NCBI RefSeq assembly: GCF_002005145.1
Contig: NZ_CP019698.1
Span: 2,666,001-2,730,000 of the forward strand
Source of the DNA: Desulforamulus ferrireducens
Lineage (GTDB): Bacteria > Bacillota > Desulfotomaculia > Desulfotomaculales > Desulfotomaculaceae
Reading direction: 5' to 3'
DNA: 64,000 nt
Below are positions 5,003 through 51,715 of this stretch, piece by piece. Positions within the stretch are counted from its first letter, which is position 1. The number at the start of each line of letters is the position of its first letter. Below the pieces are notes generated by a model, which saw only the letters and a program-made list of their open reading frames with translations, had not been told where the DNA came from and searched no databases. The translations under genes and the position numbers were made by a program.

Positions 5003-5250
5003 AAAAATATATAAACCTCTCGTCCTCAAAGGGACGAGAGGTTTCTCCCGCGGTACCACCCAAATTGATAAGTGTCCTTATCCTCTTTAAAGCTATAACG
5101 GGCCAACCCGGCTTGAAGTACTATTTTCCCTCAAACAACTCCGGGGCGAGCTTCAATAGCTTTACCCACCGTCTCACACCAACCGACGGCTCTCTGCAGG
5201 GCTACACCATTTACTACTCCCCATCATTATCTTTACCATGTATTTTAGTG
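5003..5250 (-). promoter_or_regulatory. T-box leader, probable Leu (CTC) specifier
   Basis: Minus-strand T-box riboswitch. The conserved GGTGGTACCGCGG antiterminator motif lies at 5047-5060. It is followed by a strong terminator hairpin (arms 5013-5025 and 5031-5044) and a T-rich tail. The stem I specifier loop reads GAA-G-CTC-G and is followed by CCCC, which pairs with GGGG on the 5' side. The same register in the valS T-box (51440-51715) gives GTA (Val), which supports reading CTC (Leu) here. Downstream genes are the acyl-CoA ligase and then leuS. Reading the loop one base earlier would give GCT (Ala), which fits the downstream genes less well. Confidence 0.85.
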
Positions 5251-18218: not shown

Positions 18219-23168
<4,950 letters not shown>

Positions 23169-23434
23169 TATAATATTAAATATTTCAGGAGCTTGATTAG
23201 CTCTTGTTCTCTCGTCCCCTTTAGGGGATTCATTATTGGAATTACTCGCTAGCGTTACATAACGCTTGACGAGGATGTTTGTGGTCATCATAGTTTCAAG
23301 CGTCACCGCTTGACTTTTGCTTGACCTGTTGTTCATCCATCATCTGCTGTTTAGTTTTCAAAGACCATGGTTTGTCTCGCTTCTGACGAGCCAAACTACT
23401 TTTTGTGTTTTCCCGGCCTCGCGACCGAAATTTT

Positions 23435-36698: not shown

Positions 36699-37943
36699 CT
36701 AAAACAATATCTTTTGCCTTCTCATATACACATTCAGCAATATCCCCATGGCTATCATATTGCTCATCATGCTGCTTCCACCGTAGCTAAAGAGGGGCAG
36801 TGGGATGCCTGTAACGGGCATAATACCGGAGACCATACCTACGTTGGTAAGAATATGAAAGGTAAGCATAGTTACCACACCAGTGGCTAGCAAAGTGCCA
36901 TTTAAGTCTTTGGCTTCAGCGGCAATGCGGATACCCCTGTAAATCAGAATAAAAAAGAGAATTAACAGAGCTGTTACGCCAATAAAGCCCATTTCCTCTC
37001 CCACCACGGAAAAAATAAAATCCGTATGTTGCTCTGGCAGGAAATTAAGCTGATTTTGGCTGCCGTTATAAATTCCCTTTCCTTCTAAGCCACCGGAACC
37101 AATGGCTATCTGGGACTGCACCACGTGATAACCAGCCCCTAGAATGTTCTCTTTGCTCCAGGGATCTAAAAATACCAACAGGCGGTCCAACTGATATTCT
37201 TTGAGGGGAATCCATAAACCAAATTTCACATGCACCCACACCCAGCCAATGGCAGTGGTCAGGCCTCCTACGAACAACCCTACCACCAGTTTGGGATTTG
37301 CTCCTGCCACATATAACATACCAAACATAATGGCAATAAACACCAAGGAGGTTCCCAGATCAGGCTGTTTTAAAATAAGCAACATGGGCACACCCACATG
37401 CAAAAAACAAGGTATTAAATCCTTTAGGGTATTCAGTTTTCCCTCTCTGCGAGCTAAGAAATCAGCAAAGGTAATAATGATGGCAATCTTGGCAAACTCC
37501 GAAGGCTGTAGGGAAAAAAACCCTAGATTAATCCACCGGGTGGCTCCCTTTGCATTGTGCCCTAAGGGAGACAGTACCAATAGCAAGAGCAAAAGATTAA
37601 TGACATAGATGGCTTTGCGATGTCTACGGAAATCTTCATAGGGTATGGAAAGGATAAAGGCTACAATGCCTAAGCTTAGACATATCCAAAGGATTTGCTT
37701 TTGCACTGTATCACTAAAAAACATTTTACTGTACTTTATTATAGAAATCCCGAGGGGCTCCGTAGTGCTTTCGCCATTAAGGCCAGGTGTGTCCTTATTC
37801 CATATTTCTTGCTGTTGTTTATAATCCATTGGACTACTTACTAGGGTAGCACTGCTGATGGTTACTAAACTAAAACAAAGGATTAAAACTATGGCAATTA
37901 CCAATGTATAATCAAGGTTTTTAATAAACCGCCTATCCACCAT
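36699..37943 (-). CDS. rodA: Rod-shape-determining SEDS protein RodA (FtsW/RodA/SpoVE family)
   Basis: SEDS-family peptidoglycan glycosyltransferase of about 414 residues, start ATG 37943 behind AGGAGGTG. It has about ten transmembrane segments. The family signature with LQPSEFAKIAIIITFADFLA lies near residues 145-165, and the C-terminal VTGIPLPLFSYGGSSM near 375-390. It works with PBP2 (mrdA, upstream) in lateral wall elongation. It lies after minE, separated by a terminator at 38057. Confidence 0.95.
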   Translation of the reverse strand: MVDRRFIKNLDYTLVIAIVLILCFSLVTISSATLVSSPMDYKQQQEIWNKDTPGLNGESTTEPLGISIIKYSKMFFSDTVQKQILWICLSLGIVAFILSIPYEDFRRHRKAIYVINLLLLLLVLSPLGHNAKGATRWINLGFFSLQPSEFAKIAIIITFADFLARREGKLNTLKDLIPCFLHVGVPMLLILKQPDLGTSLVFIAIMFGMLYVAGANPKLVVGLFVGGLTTAIGWVWVHVKFGLWIPLKEYQLDRLLVFLDPWSKENILGAGYHVVQSQIAIGSGGLEGKGIYNGSQNQLNFLPEQHTDFIFSVVGEEMGFIGVTALLILFFILIYRGIRIAAEAKDLNGTLLATGVVTMLTFHILTNVGMVSGIMPVTGIPLPLFSYGGSSMMSNMIAMGILLNVYMRRQKILF

Positions 37944-38056
37944 AGCACCTCCTCTGGCTGCCATTGTGTAGTGCTTCTTAACCTTTTGATTATATACTAA
38001 ATGTTAGGGATGGTACAAGGGGGGGATGGTTGACGGTTAGATATCCCACAAACAAA

Positions 38057-38105: not shown

Positions 38106-38372
38106 TTAATGCGCCCGCTTCATTTTTTTAACGGGAATGTTGGCAACTAACGCCACCTGGTTGTCATTACTGTCCAGGGATACTTCCAGTGCCTTTTCAT
38201 CAATCTCCATGTAGTTGGAAATAACCTTGATGAGATCATTTTTTAGGGAGGTCAGTAGATCAGGTGAAACATTGGCCCGGTCGTGTACCAAAACCAGTCT
38301 CAATCTCTCTTTTGCCACGTTTTTACTACTGCTCGTCTCACGACCAAAAATCCTGTTTAGGAAATCTAACAC
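38106..38372 (-). CDS. minE: Cell division topological specificity factor MinE
   Basis: An 88-residue protein, start GTG 38372 behind AAAGGGGG. It has the membrane-targeting N-terminus MLDFLNRIFGR, the MinD-contact region KERLRLVLVHDRANVSPDLL (residues 21-40), and the C-terminal topological domain. MinE drives MinD off the membrane and creates pole-to-pole oscillation. The set minC-minD-minE is intact in order. Confidence 0.95.
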   Translation of the reverse strand: MLDFLNRIFGRETSSSKNVAKERLRLVLVHDRANVSPDLLTSLKNDLIKVISNYMEIDEKALEVSLDSNDNQVALVANIPVKKMKRAH

Positions 38373-38387
38373 TCCGGTACCCCCTTT

Positions 38388-39182
38388 CTACTTAAGTCCA
38401 ATCATTTTCCTTAAGGCGCTAAAGAATCCACCGGACTCTTCCAAGTTCATTAAAGGCACGTTTTCGCCCATAATACGGCGGGTGATATTACGATAAGCCT
38501 GTCCACTGAGAGACTTATCATCTCTCACAACAGTTTCACCCTTGTTGGTGGTAACCACAACCTGTTCGTCTTCAGGAACCACACCCAACAGATCAATGGC
38601 TAAAATTTCGTTCATATCATCTATACTCATCATATCGCCACGGTTTACCATTTTAGGACGGTAGCGGTTAATAATGAGTTTGGGATCCCTTAAATCCGCT
38701 GCTTCCAAAAGACCAATAATCCTGTCGGCATCACGCACCGCAGATACCTCCGGGGTGGTTACGACAATGGCTTTGTCAGCACCGGCAATGGCATTTTTAA
38801 ACCCTTGCTCGATGCCCGCAGGGCAGTCGATAATTACATAATCAAATTCCTTGCGCAGTTCCTCACAGAGCTCTTTCATTTGCTCTGGATTGACCGCGGT
38901 TTTGTCCTTTGTTTGGGCGGCCGGTAATAAATGCAAGCCCTCAAACCTTTTATCCTTGATCAAAGCCTGGCGCAAGCGGCAGACCCCGCTGGTAACATCT
39001 ACGATATCATAGACTATTCTATTTTCTAATCCTAACACCACATCCAAGTTGCGCAGCCCGATGTCGGCATCCACTAAACACACCTTTTTGTTGGAAGCTG
39101 CCAGCCCAGTCCCCAGGTTGGCTGTGGTAGTGGTTTTGCCAACTCCCCCTTTACCGGAAGTGACTACGATGACTTCACCCAT
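38388..39182 (-). CDS. minD: Septum site-determining ATPase MinD
   Basis: A 264-residue ParA/MinD ATPase. The deviant Walker A is GKGGVGKT (residues 10-17), the switch regions DADIGLRNLD and DCPAGIEQGF are clear, and a C-terminal amphipathic helix (GFFSALRKMIGLK) anchors it to the membrane. The start is ATG 39182 behind TAAGGAGG; the frame opens 13 codons upstream without support. It recruits MinC and is regulated by MinE. Confidence 0.97.
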   Translation of the reverse strand: MGEVIVVTSGKGGVGKTTTTANLGTGLAASNKKVCLVDADIGLRNLDVVLGLENRIVYDIVDVTSGVCRLRQALIKDKRFEGLHLLPAAQTKDKTAVNPEQMKELCEELRKEFDYVIIDCPAGIEQGFKNAIAGADKAIVVTTPEVSAVRDADRIIGLLEAADLRDPKLIINRYRPKMVNRGDMMSIDDMNEILAIDLLGVVPEDEQVVVTTNKGETVVRDDKSLSGQAYRNITRRIMGENVPLMNLEESGGFFSALRKMIGLK

Positions 39183-39228: not shown

Positions 39229-39639
39229 CTATTTAAAATTAGAATTAAAGGTTTCTATGGTTACTACGCCATTCTTAATTCGGGCCAATTCCGGGTAATC
39301 CGGGTCAGAGGTTTCTTCTTCAGGAGGCCTTGTAATGTGGTTGGCAATTCTTAACTGGGTAGGTCTCAGCCGAAAGGCCAAGATAACTGCATTGGTGTCT
39401 CCCCTTGCTCCAGCATGGACAACTCCCCGTAGAGCCCCCATAACAACAACATTACCGGCAGCTACCACTTCGGCACCCGGGTTAACATCTCCCAGCACCA
39501 CTACGTTGCCGTCATGGGATACACTTTGTCCAGAGCGTAAGGTTCTTTGTACCAAAACAGTATTATCATCCACCAGATCTTCTAGTTCCACAGGCAAGTT
39601 GTTTAAGGCACTACTTTGAGTGGATATTCCATTGGTCAA
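39229..39639 (-). CDS. minC: MinC lacking the N-terminal FtsZ-inhibitory domain
   Basis: A 136-residue protein that matches only the C-terminal beta-helix domain of MinC, which dimerises and binds MinD: VLVQRTLRSGQSVSHDGNVV near residue 28 and LGDVNPGAEVVAAGNVVVMG near 49. Ordinary MinC proteins have about 210-230 residues with a further N-terminal domain of about 100 that inhibits FtsZ assembly. Start TTG 39639 has GGGAGG upstream, and an in-frame TAG lies two codons before it, so no longer form is encoded. How this protein would act on FtsZ is unclear. Confidence 0.88.
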   Translation of the reverse strand: MTNGISTQSSALNNLPVELEDLVDDNTVLVQRTLRSGQSVSHDGNVVVLGDVNPGAEVVAAGNVVVMGALRGVVHAGARGDTNAVILAFRLRPTQLRIANHITRPPEEETSDPDYPELARIKNGVVTIETFNSNFK

Positions 39640-39711
39640 GTTTAACTACCTCCCGTTACCCTCTACATTAAGTTCTACAGAGGAGTACCAATTCCTTCTA
39701 AAGATGGATAA

Positions 39712-39732
39712 AAAAAAGAGGCCATATGCCTC
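39712..39732 (-). terminator. Terminator between mrdA and minC
   Basis: GAGGC and GCCTC arms (39718-39732) with an ATATG loop, followed on the minus strand by TTTTTTT. It separates the min genes from mrdA. Confidence 0.8.
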
Positions 39733-39763
39733 GATAATATGAGCTAATTTGACATTTTGCCTC

Positions 39764-41752
39764 TTAATCTGTGCTATAGACAATATTTTGTTTAGGAGCA
39801 ACATCCAATTTAAAATAAGCGGCAAAGATATCCCTGGCTACTGGTGCTGCAGCTGTACCGCCATGTCCACCATAATCAATAACTGTAGCCACGGCTATTT
39901 CTGGATTATTATAGGGAGCGTAGCCCACAAAAAGGGCATGGTCATCCCGCTTATCCACCTGGGCAGTCCCGGTTTTAGCAGCAACTTCCACGGGAAAGTC
40001 TCTAAACACGCCCGCAGCAGTTCCAGAGGTGACAACCCGCCGCATACCCTCCTGGAGGATTTTGAAAACCTCCGGTTTAATTGGTGCTTCACTTAACTTT
40101 TCAGGTTTAAATTCTTTCAGGACTTTACCATCGCTGGACACAACCTTTTCCACCAGGTAAGGCTTCCATCTTACCCCATTGTTGGCCAGCATGGCAGCAT
40201 AGTTAGCCAACTGTAACGGGGTGTAAGAGTTATAGCCCTGTCCAATGGACATGTTTAATGTATCATAAACCTGCCAGTAAAAATCCCAGGTATACTCATT
40301 GTACTCATCTTTAAGTTTTTTTAGTTCCTTTTGCTTGGCCTTTTCCAGTTTTTCTCTTTCCTCTTCACTTGCCGCATTGGCTATCAGGGGCTTATATTTA
40401 TCTTCCACTGCCTTATACCGCGGCTCGAAAATTGCATCATTGATGGCTTTGTTTCTCTTATATTTGTACTCCGGCGTAGGGACATTACCCCGGGATTCAC
40501 CGGGAATTTCAATGCCGGTTAATTCACCAAAGCCAAACATTTTAGCATATTTACCAATTAATTCCACACCCAAATAGCGGTGCCCCAAGGTAATAAAGAA
40601 ATTATTACATGAAACCTCAAGAGCTTTTATTATATCCACCCGTCCGTGTCCAACCTTGTTGGAGTCTGTGATTACCATATTACCATAAACATAACTGGGG
40701 GTATCGGCTATGGTAAAGCTAGGGTCTATTTTACCTGTATCCAGTGCTGCTGCCCCCACAACCATTTTAAAGGTTGAACCAGGTGGGTACACCTGGATAG
40801 CTCTGTTGGGCAAAGCACCACTTTTTTGTAGATCTTCCCACTGTTTTTGGCTTAAGCCTTTGATCCAGATGGAAGGTTCGTAGGTAGGATAACTGGCCAT
40901 GGCCCTGATGGCACCGGTTCGTACATCAATGGCTATGGTGGCACCACCTTTGGCTTCGTGACCAATTTTTCGCATAGCCAAAACTTGTCTCTCCAATGCT
41001 GCCTCCGCAGCCTTTTGAACTTCGACATCAATGGTTAAATGCAAATTACTCCCAGGCACTGGTTCCTTAACACCCAAATCTCGAATGGGCCTGGCCTGGG
41101 CATCCACTTCCACCTGCCGTGCACCATCCTGACCCCTTAAATAGGCTTCAAAGGAGTTCTCTAAACCTTCTTGGCCGTACATATCTCCCAGCTTGTATGT
41201 ATTATTTTCCTTTTTCTGCTGTTCTTCCAATTGATGCTTTTTAATCTCCTGTACATAACCAAGGACATGGGACAACATAGAACCATAGGGGTAATTCCGC
41301 ACAGGAGCCACATCAATAACCACACCAGGCAGTTCTGGACGCCGCTCTTCCAGAGCTATAATTGTTTCCAGGGGCACATCGGTGGCCAAGCGCACCGGCT
41401 GATACAGCCTTAACTTTTGTTCTTCCAGCCTTTTTATAATTTCCTGAGGGTCCATGCCTAGGATCTCTGCCACTTTTTTAACTACGGTGTCTGTATCCTT
41501 AAGGCCCAAATACACCAGGGATACAGTGTAAACCGGCTTATTACCCACTATTTTCACACCGTTACGATCAAATATTTCACCCCTGGGCGCCATAATAGGA
41601 TTCAAGCGCATATGGTTTTGTTTGGCCAAAGTCTCAAACTTTTCAGTGTTAAAAAGCTGCATATAGGCTAAACGACCAATAAGGACTATAAAGATAAGAG
41701 ATACCAACAAGAGGAGCACACGGGTCTTTTTCTCTATAACTTTCCTTTCCAA
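39764..41752 (-). CDS. mrdA: Penicillin-binding protein 2 (elongasome transpeptidase)
   Basis: Class B PBP of 662 residues that cross-links lateral-wall peptidoglycan with RodA. It has an N-terminal membrane anchor (about 10-32), a pedestal domain with APRGEIFDRNG (about 55-65), and a transpeptidase domain with the active-site serine in PPGSTFKM (about 324-331), SCN (about 379) and KTGTAQ (about 589). Residues about 430-495 form a charged, Lys/Glu-rich helical insert between SxN and KTG that is longer than in ordinary PBP2. The start is TTG 41752 behind AGGAGG. It follows mreBCD, so it belongs to the elongasome unit. Confidence 0.95.
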   Translation of the reverse strand: MERKVIEKKTRVLLLLVSLIFIVLIGRLAYMQLFNTEKFETLAKQNHMRLNPIMAPRGEIFDRNGVKIVGNKPVYTVSLVYLGLKDTDTVVKKVAEILGMDPQEIIKRLEEQKLRLYQPVRLATDVPLETIIALEERRPELPGVVIDVAPVRNYPYGSMLSHVLGYVQEIKKHQLEEQQKKENNTYKLGDMYGQEGLENSFEAYLRGQDGARQVEVDAQARPIRDLGVKEPVPGSNLHLTIDVEVQKAAEAALERQVLAMRKIGHEAKGGATIAIDVRTGAIRAMASYPTYEPSIWIKGLSQKQWEDLQKSGALPNRAIQVYPPGSTFKMVVGAAALDTGKIDPSFTIADTPSYVYGNMVITDSNKVGHGRVDIIKALEVSCNNFFITLGHRYLGVELIGKYAKMFGFGELTGIEIPGESRGNVPTPEYKYKRNKAINDAIFEPRYKAVEDKYKPLIANAASEEEREKLEKAKQKELKKLKDEYNEYTWDFYWQVYDTLNMSIGQGYNSYTPLQLANYAAMLANNGVRWKPYLVEKVVSSDGKVLKEFKPEKLSEAPIKPEVFKILQEGMRRVVTSGTAAGVFRDFPVEVAAKTGTAQVDKRDDHALFVGYAPYNNPEIAVATVIDYGGHGGTAAAPVARDIFAAYFKLDVAPKQNIVYSTD

Positions 41753-51439: not shown

Positions 51440-51715
51440 AAAAAAATAACTCCCATCCTCTGACAAGGACGGAAGTTTTGTTCCGCGGTACCACCTTGTT
51501 TCCACCCAAAAAAATGTGCTAAGGGTGGCAACTTATGGGGCTATAACGGGCCTACCCGTCCAGACCTACTATTATTTCAGCCTGACTTCTCCGGGGCTAC
51601 ATCCCAAGTATTCGGACAGAAGGTTTTCCAGCCACGAACCTTCCTCTCTGAGCCCAAAATCTCCCGGGAACTCCCCATCTTCGACTTTAACAAGGTATAT
51701 CTACCATTTACCTAC
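51440..51715 (-). promoter_or_regulatory. T-box leader, Val (GTA) specifier
   Basis: Minus-strand T-box with AGGTGGTACCGCGG (51484-51496 region), a terminator hairpin (arms about 51448-51459 and 51467-51476) and a run of T. In stem I the specifier loop reads T-GTA-G followed by CCCC, which pairs with GGGG. GTA is a valine codon, in agreement with valS just downstream. Uncharged tRNA-Val should stabilise the antiterminator. Confidence 0.92.

Follow-up and report, generated by a model that had tools for sequence, protein, structure and literature searches.

How is the division site controlled in a bacterium whose minC beside minD and minE codes for only half of the inhibitor? The question is raised by a locus of Desulforamulus ferrireducens that lies in the window, by which we mean the whole 64-kb stretch of DNA analysed here (G000:C1:2666001-2730000), in a genome that is a single contig of 3.24 Mb. 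The gene order is mreB-mreC-mreD-mrdA-minC-minD-minE-rodA (mreB was named from its sequence), and this minC is an ORF of 136 aa, called within the window, that runs on the minus strand from a TTG start at 39639 to 39229. The features of the locus, in window coordinates and all on the minus strand, are:

36699..37964, minus strand: rodA, downstream of minE (profile match)
38106..38372, minus strand: minE (Pfam and TIGR01215)
38388..39182, minus strand: minD, the genome's only strong MinD match
39229..39639, minus strand: short minC, MinC_C domain only (ORF, Pfam, AF2 model and PDB matches)
39649..39654, minus strand: ribosome-binding site GGGAGG of the short minC (sequence)
39672..39678, minus strand: -10-like element GTAGAAC of sigma-H type, with one mismatch (sequence)
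39690..39698, minus strand: -35-like element GAAGGAATT of sigma-H type, with an 11-nt spacer to the -10 (sequence)
39718..39732, minus strand: terminator-like hairpin and T run after mrdA (one found, 0.7 expected by shuffling; weak alone)
39764..41752, minus strand: mrdA (PBP2), the upstream neighbour of the short minC (domain match)

As the original prediction had stated, minD and minE are intact, since both products exceed their curated cut-offs: MinD scored 413.9 bits against TIGR01968 (cut-off 212.9) and MinE 84.6 bits against TIGR01215 (cut-off 49.3). The genome holds one strong MinD, the next ParA/MinD-family match having 28% identity. In E. coli MinD, residues S148, D154 and I159 of helix 7 are described as those contacted by RSGQ (PMC6803595); the equivalents of S148 and D154 are kept in the MinD of the window, and I159 is a Leu. 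Elsewhere in the window, the 16S rRNA match at 21559-23172 (minus strand) has 1614 bases against a model of 1533 positions and may contain an insertion of about 80 bases, and two T-box leaders lie at 5027-5236 and 51462-51690 (minus strand).

Our results show that the short gene codes for a C-terminal MinC domain, as had been read from the DNA. The protein matched PF03775 (MinC_C) with an E value of 2.6e-36 and 124.1 bits (cut-off 33.2), and the FtsZ-inhibiting MinC_N domain (PF05209) was not detected in it by the Pfam search. The codons ahead of the gene read TAG TTA AAC TTG, that is, an in-frame stop is followed by two codons and the start, again in agreement with the original prediction. 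The gap between the short minC and the end of mrdA (39640-39763, 124 bases) contains the hairpin, the sigma-H-like site and GGGAGG, and these elements together with the in-frame stop mark a genuine gene start and not a frameshifted remnant. An N domain hidden in this gap, which had also been thought excluded, or in another frame is ruled out, since the one MinC_N match of the genome above cut-off sits 0.77 Mb away. In the AF2 model residues 31-100 have block means of 94-98, residues 1-15 stay under 50, and the tail ahead of the C domain is predicted to be disordered. Nine PDB matches fell below E 0.001, all of them MinC chains; both sequence and fold matched 4v02, 1hf2, 6riq and 5xdm. With the MinC proteins of E. 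coli, Pseudomonas aeruginosa, Aquifex aeolicus and Thermotoga maritima the short protein shares the MinC_C beta-helix and the RSGQ-type MinD-binding motif (residues 35-38); in contrast to these two-domain proteins, the operonic protein here is without the N-terminal FtsZ-binding domain, which is carried by an unlinked gene. The short protein also passes the NCBI equivalog model TIGR01222 (minC), with 112.5 bits against a cut-off of 95.25, through a match that spans model positions 119-226 of 226 only. Automatic annotation can thus label a half protein MinC on its C half alone, and this labelling may be the reason why the short form has gone unremarked.

The original prediction had concluded that division-site control would call for another, unrelated FtsZ inhibitor, and had advised a search for a MinC N domain elsewhere in the genome; a second full-length minC was what it named as able to overturn it. 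Such a gene exists. It lies at G000:C1:1936444-1937124, 0.77 Mb from the short gene, and its product carries both MinC_N (61.9 bits, cut-off 27.3) and MinC_C (114.1 bits, cut-off 33.2). Searched with MinC_C, the genome gave the short gene and one further match, at 1936780-1937079 within a frame of 229 aa; the MinC_N search gave one place above the Pfam cut-off, in the same 229-aa frame, and three further weak places below it, and an N-domain alignment search gave one place. Since a full-length MinC is encoded elsewhere in this genome, as it is in 58 of the 60 order genomes, no unrelated inhibitor is required. This copy, which we call the orphan, lies behind a same-strand gene of 539 aa and is convergent with a NUDIX-family gene; in most orphan loci of other genera the preceding gene is divergent.

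The arrangement is not peculiar to this genome. In 60 genomes, from our own and the same genus out to the same order, MinC_C, N-domain and MinD matches were placed on common coordinates and the copies sorted into N-bearing and N-less, 'short' in all counts meaning that no MinC_N was detected. The 115 MinC_C copies above cut-off comprised 57 N-less ones, directly upstream of minD in 57 of 57 cases, and 58 N-bearing ones, beside minD in 0 of 58. Both copies were present in 55 genomes, the short copy only in two (G009, 70% complete, and G048, 93% complete and in about 190 contigs) and the orphan only in three, and 58 of the 60 have exactly one N domain, away from minD. Relatives, whose inspection had been proposed, therefore carry the short form, in 57 of the 60 order genomes and in 8/8 other genomes of the genus, always beside minD; a PBP2 match lies upstream of the short gene in 27 of 30 order loci. 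A MinD-independent orphan, to which the three orphan-only genomes (G033, G050 and G054, without a MinD match) might point, was considered and set aside, the min locus most likely being missing from the assemblies: the contig of G054 ends just after mrdA, and in G033 and G050 MrdA has no close match and the MreB matches are only distant (50-55%).

Ten named genomes, whose loci come from the best 80 matches to the short form and are hence biased towards it (some duplicate contigs of the G-numbered genomes), gave exactly one match each in the N-domain search. The operonic gene is without an N domain in Desulforamulus putei, Pelotomaculum terephthalicicum, Desulfofundulus thermobenzoicus, Desulforadius tongensis, Desulfotruncus arcticus, Desulfoscipio geothermicus, two draft genomes (Peptococcaceae and Desulforudis) and Carboxydocella thermautotrophica, so in these nine the single N domain lies elsewhere in the genome; in C. 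thermautotrophica one chromosome carries both, with the N domain at 1.415 Mb and the short minC at about 2.009 Mb. Heliobacterium chlorum, the tenth, has a full-length minC in the operon, and the frame that holds its single N-domain match is 304 aa long and resembles that of the operonic gene. Syntrophomonas, Heliobacterium and their relatives share the locus mrdA-minC-minD, but there, unlike here, the operonic minC is full length.

Beyond the order, the two-gene MinC recurs in numerous families elsewhere in the phylum. A sample of 149 genomes of the phylum, four of them from the order, contained MinC_C in at least 126, the N domain in 115 and MinD in 129, of which 125 have one MinD and four have two (G074, G086, G119 and G190). 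In the 125 single-MinD genomes, where orphans were judged by the N domain (MinC_C rows number at least 150, a lower bound), N lay beside MinD only in 68, elsewhere only in 42 and in both places in none, and in 15 no N was found. Three weak or partial N rows are left out of this tally: G182:C27 (E 3.2e-4, partial, 1239-aa frame), G084:C1 (E 9.1e-4, partial, 548-aa frame) and G167:C21 (24 positions at a contig end). The first two were taken as chance matches; if they were counted, two genomes would carry N at MinD as well as at another place. In G087, N occurs twice, neither time beside MinD. G074, G119 and G190 belong to one family, and each has two MinD and apparently a second min locus; their MinC N domains lie next to the second MinD or at other places. 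Six of the 15 genomes without N have MinC_C beside MinD, five of them with long N-terminal regions and weak N-domain scores (E 1.8e-6 to 0.5), which are perhaps diverged full-length MinC. Only the sixth, the small genome G163 (L289), has a truly short MinC beside minD, in a 137-aa frame, and no N domain was found in it. Among genomes outside the order that were fetched by hand-picking from the MinC_C listing, those with two copies have the N-less one beside minD and the N-bearing one apart in 20 of 20; of another 20, 18 carry a single copy, full length and next to minD, and in the other two, G163 and G196, the copy at minD is N-less, with N elsewhere in G196.

Could an N domain have been overlooked in the operonic copies? 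An open frame of at least 60 codons precedes the C domain in 20 of the 94 N-less rows beside minD, and the N-domain profile scored above 0 bits in 0 of these 20. Among the tails that seem to be translated, the longest (L201 and L233) are charged, low-complexity sequences, and no conserved motif was seen in the tail across 15 rows of the order. The long tails of four N-less operonic copies (L085, L201, L219 and L233) open with a similar basic, Lys/Ser-rich stretch, perhaps a new element replacing the N domain. In L287 and L288 (G151 and G067) the MinC C domain ends frames of 545-601 aa beside minD, which have a long low-complexity N-terminal stretch and a mere trace of N-domain similarity.

The C domains differ in how well they are kept. 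Conservation was counted over distinct rows (84 short, 55 operonic full-length and 78 orphan; L134, a contig end with a piece of minD earlier filed as an orphan, is left out). RSGQ is exact in 79/84 short, 52/55 operonic full-length and 59/78 orphan copies, and its Arg (R35) is kept in every copy of all three classes, the 78 orphans included. The short C domains agree with the operonic full-length ones at RSGQ, E57, R71, H75, Q95, R97, R104 and E117, whereas the orphans have drifted: in the same order of classes, R71 is found in 82/84, 50/55 and 38/78, Q95 in 84/84, 55/55 and 37/78, R104 in 83/84, 54/55 and 18/78, and E117 in 83/84, 55/55 and 35/78. In the 29 genomes with both copies, mean C-domain identity was 73.2% for the short form against 47.0% for the orphan, and the short form was the more identical in 406 of 406 genome pairs, which are not independent. 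Thus, the short protein is conserved in the manner of a functional MinC_C from an operon, and the drift suggests that the orphan, which carries the N domain, leans less on its own C domain. Our data show that the short gene codes for a MinC paralogue that is intact in the operon but for the N domain, which it lacks, and that the two-gene arrangement holds across the order.

How the two genes arose is suggested in part by their surroundings and trees. Among 21 orphan loci the NUDIX family is present in 18; minC was called in 20, and in 16 of these its direct, convergent neighbour is the NUDIX gene; of three orphan loci outside the order, one (L274) has the NUDIX context and two do not. A gene for a DUF3786 protein and two paired DUF2229 CoA-activase-like genes recur beside NUDIX and minC in orphan loci (e.g. 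L263:5931-6584), and six DUF2229-family genes there also show sigma-H-like sites. The C-domain trees were built on 108 columns and have many open forks. In the 96-row tree the orphans are not one group (6 changes); in a 57-row tree, from which 22 long rows were removed and the rest thinned, 17 orphans fall on one side of a branch and 40 operonic copies on the other, with a support of 96/79 (not starred) and 94% of 200 bootstraps. Short and operonic full-length copies are mixed in the trees (5-6 changes). The simplest reading of these sequences would be an ancient duplication behind the operonic and orphan minC, with the N domain lost from the operonic copy once or, it may be, several times.

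For the sigma-H consensus we applied a -35 RNAGGAWWW and a -10 RNNGAAT. In two loci of the same genus (L012 and L014) the site aligned to the -10 of the short minC reads GTAGAAT. When 200 bases upstream were scanned (starts being set as the nearest upstream ATG, GTG or TTG, so that some stretches begin within a gene), consensus matches preceded 58/84 short, 22/55 operonic full-length and 48/78 orphan genes, against a shuffled expectation of less than one row per class (the shuffles hold first-order composition approximately). Within the orphan loci the pattern was seen at minC in 14 of 20 and at other genes in 13 of 208. A conserved upstream block in nine genomes of the genus had raised the possibility that the orphan is a sporulation-only MinC; this is weakened, because the same type of site precedes the short and the operonic full-length minC. 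The sites before operonic full-length genes mean, moreover, that the split is not set apart by them, and the class of control is already known, min genes being described as under sigma-H control in B. subtilis and C. difficile (PMC4905992). The likeness to those species lies in sigma-H-like sites before minC, and the difference in that here the predicted sites precede two separate minC genes.

What are the roles of the two proteins? MinC_C is described as dimerising and binding MinD via RSGQ, and MinC_N as acting on FtsZ polymers (PMC6803595, PMC3618327, PMC5548801). We propose, with about even confidence, that the jobs of MinC are divided here between two partners, the short form being a MinD-bound scaffold and the orphan a separately dosed FtsZ inhibitor. 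The short MinC_C dimer would bind the single MinD through its RSGQ face and so form the MinD-bound scaffold on which the Min gradient rests; it might also make contact with the FtsZ tail. The orphan would supply the FtsZ-breaking N domain, either by joining the short form via the C-domain dimer face or because both share MinD. With separate genes, both preceded by sigma-H-like sites, the dose of the inhibitor could be set apart from the MinD scaffold and might shift, for example at sporulation, in the move from mid-cell to polar division. Several observations speak against such a division of labour: with RSGQ exact in 59/78 orphans and the Arg in all 78, the orphan may act with MinD alone; the diverged orphan C domains may present a dimer face that no longer fits the short form; a short MinC occurs in G163, where no N domain was detected; and the sigma-H-like sites, as noted above, do not set the split apart. 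A stronger version, in which scaffold and FtsZ-breaking subunit obligately heterodimerise, Min activity being the ratio of the two MinC proteins and retuned at sporulation, is a tentative proposal that we hold to be somewhat doubtful.

The short MinC might instead be a working vegetative inhibitor that, bound to MinD, would block Z rings via the FtsZ tail, the full-length orphan being reserved for a particular condition such as sporulation. We think this rather unlikely. MinC_C with MinD does inhibit division in E. coli (PMC6803595, PMC3618327), the orphan is unlinked and has a sigma-H-like site in 48/78 rows, and no N domain was detected in G163, which does have the short form; however, the inhibition by MinC_C is described in these sources on overproduction, and sigma-H-like sites are at least as frequent before the short gene, so the orphan is not marked out as special. 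An antagonist, which would occupy MinD or form mixed dimers and so lower the activity of full-length MinC, is what one might suspect of a protein that keeps the MinD-binding and dimer domain without the FtsZ-breaking one, but its complementarity with the operonic full-length MinC resembles one job divided and not a brake added, and the short copy is better conserved than the orphan; we consider this unlikely. The original prediction had also offered an adaptor that brings a different partner to MinD. A MinD-binding domain without an effector is how an adaptor is expected to look, and long basic tails do occur in L085, L201, L219 and L233, outside the family of the window; the tail, however, is motif-less across 15 order rows and predicted to be disordered in the window, and an N domain can be obtained from the orphan, which makes the adaptor very improbable. 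A sequencing error, frameshift or pseudogene of an operonic minC, for which no sign was seen, can practically be dismissed, being refuted by the comparison among the order genomes, 57/60 of which have an N-less copy beside minD, and by the strong conservation of the short gene, which has a promoter-like site and a ribosome-binding site of its own in the window.

Shiomi and Margolin 2007 and Shen and Lutkenhaus 2009 reportedly expressed engineered MinC_C with MinD in E. coli. In both cases MinC_C stands alone with MinD, but that was a laboratory construct and here it is a natural operon gene. Our searches of open-licence papers turned up no operonic gene reduced to MinC_C that has an orphan MinC as its counterpart. 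In the work cited here, the N and C domains of MinC were probably distinguished mostly with the help of engineered truncations. Evolution has separated the two halves in a whole order and beyond, leaving the C half with MinD and MinE, and in a large part of the phylum the divided MinC may be ancestral or may have arisen on several occasions. One practical consequence is a warning that automatic annotation can name both proteins MinC. The arrangement also offers a natural test of what a MinD-bound MinC_C does alone, and of whether the dose of the inhibitor can be uncoupled from the MinD/MinE gradient, a question that deserves attention in endospore formers that have MinE and must switch to polar septation.
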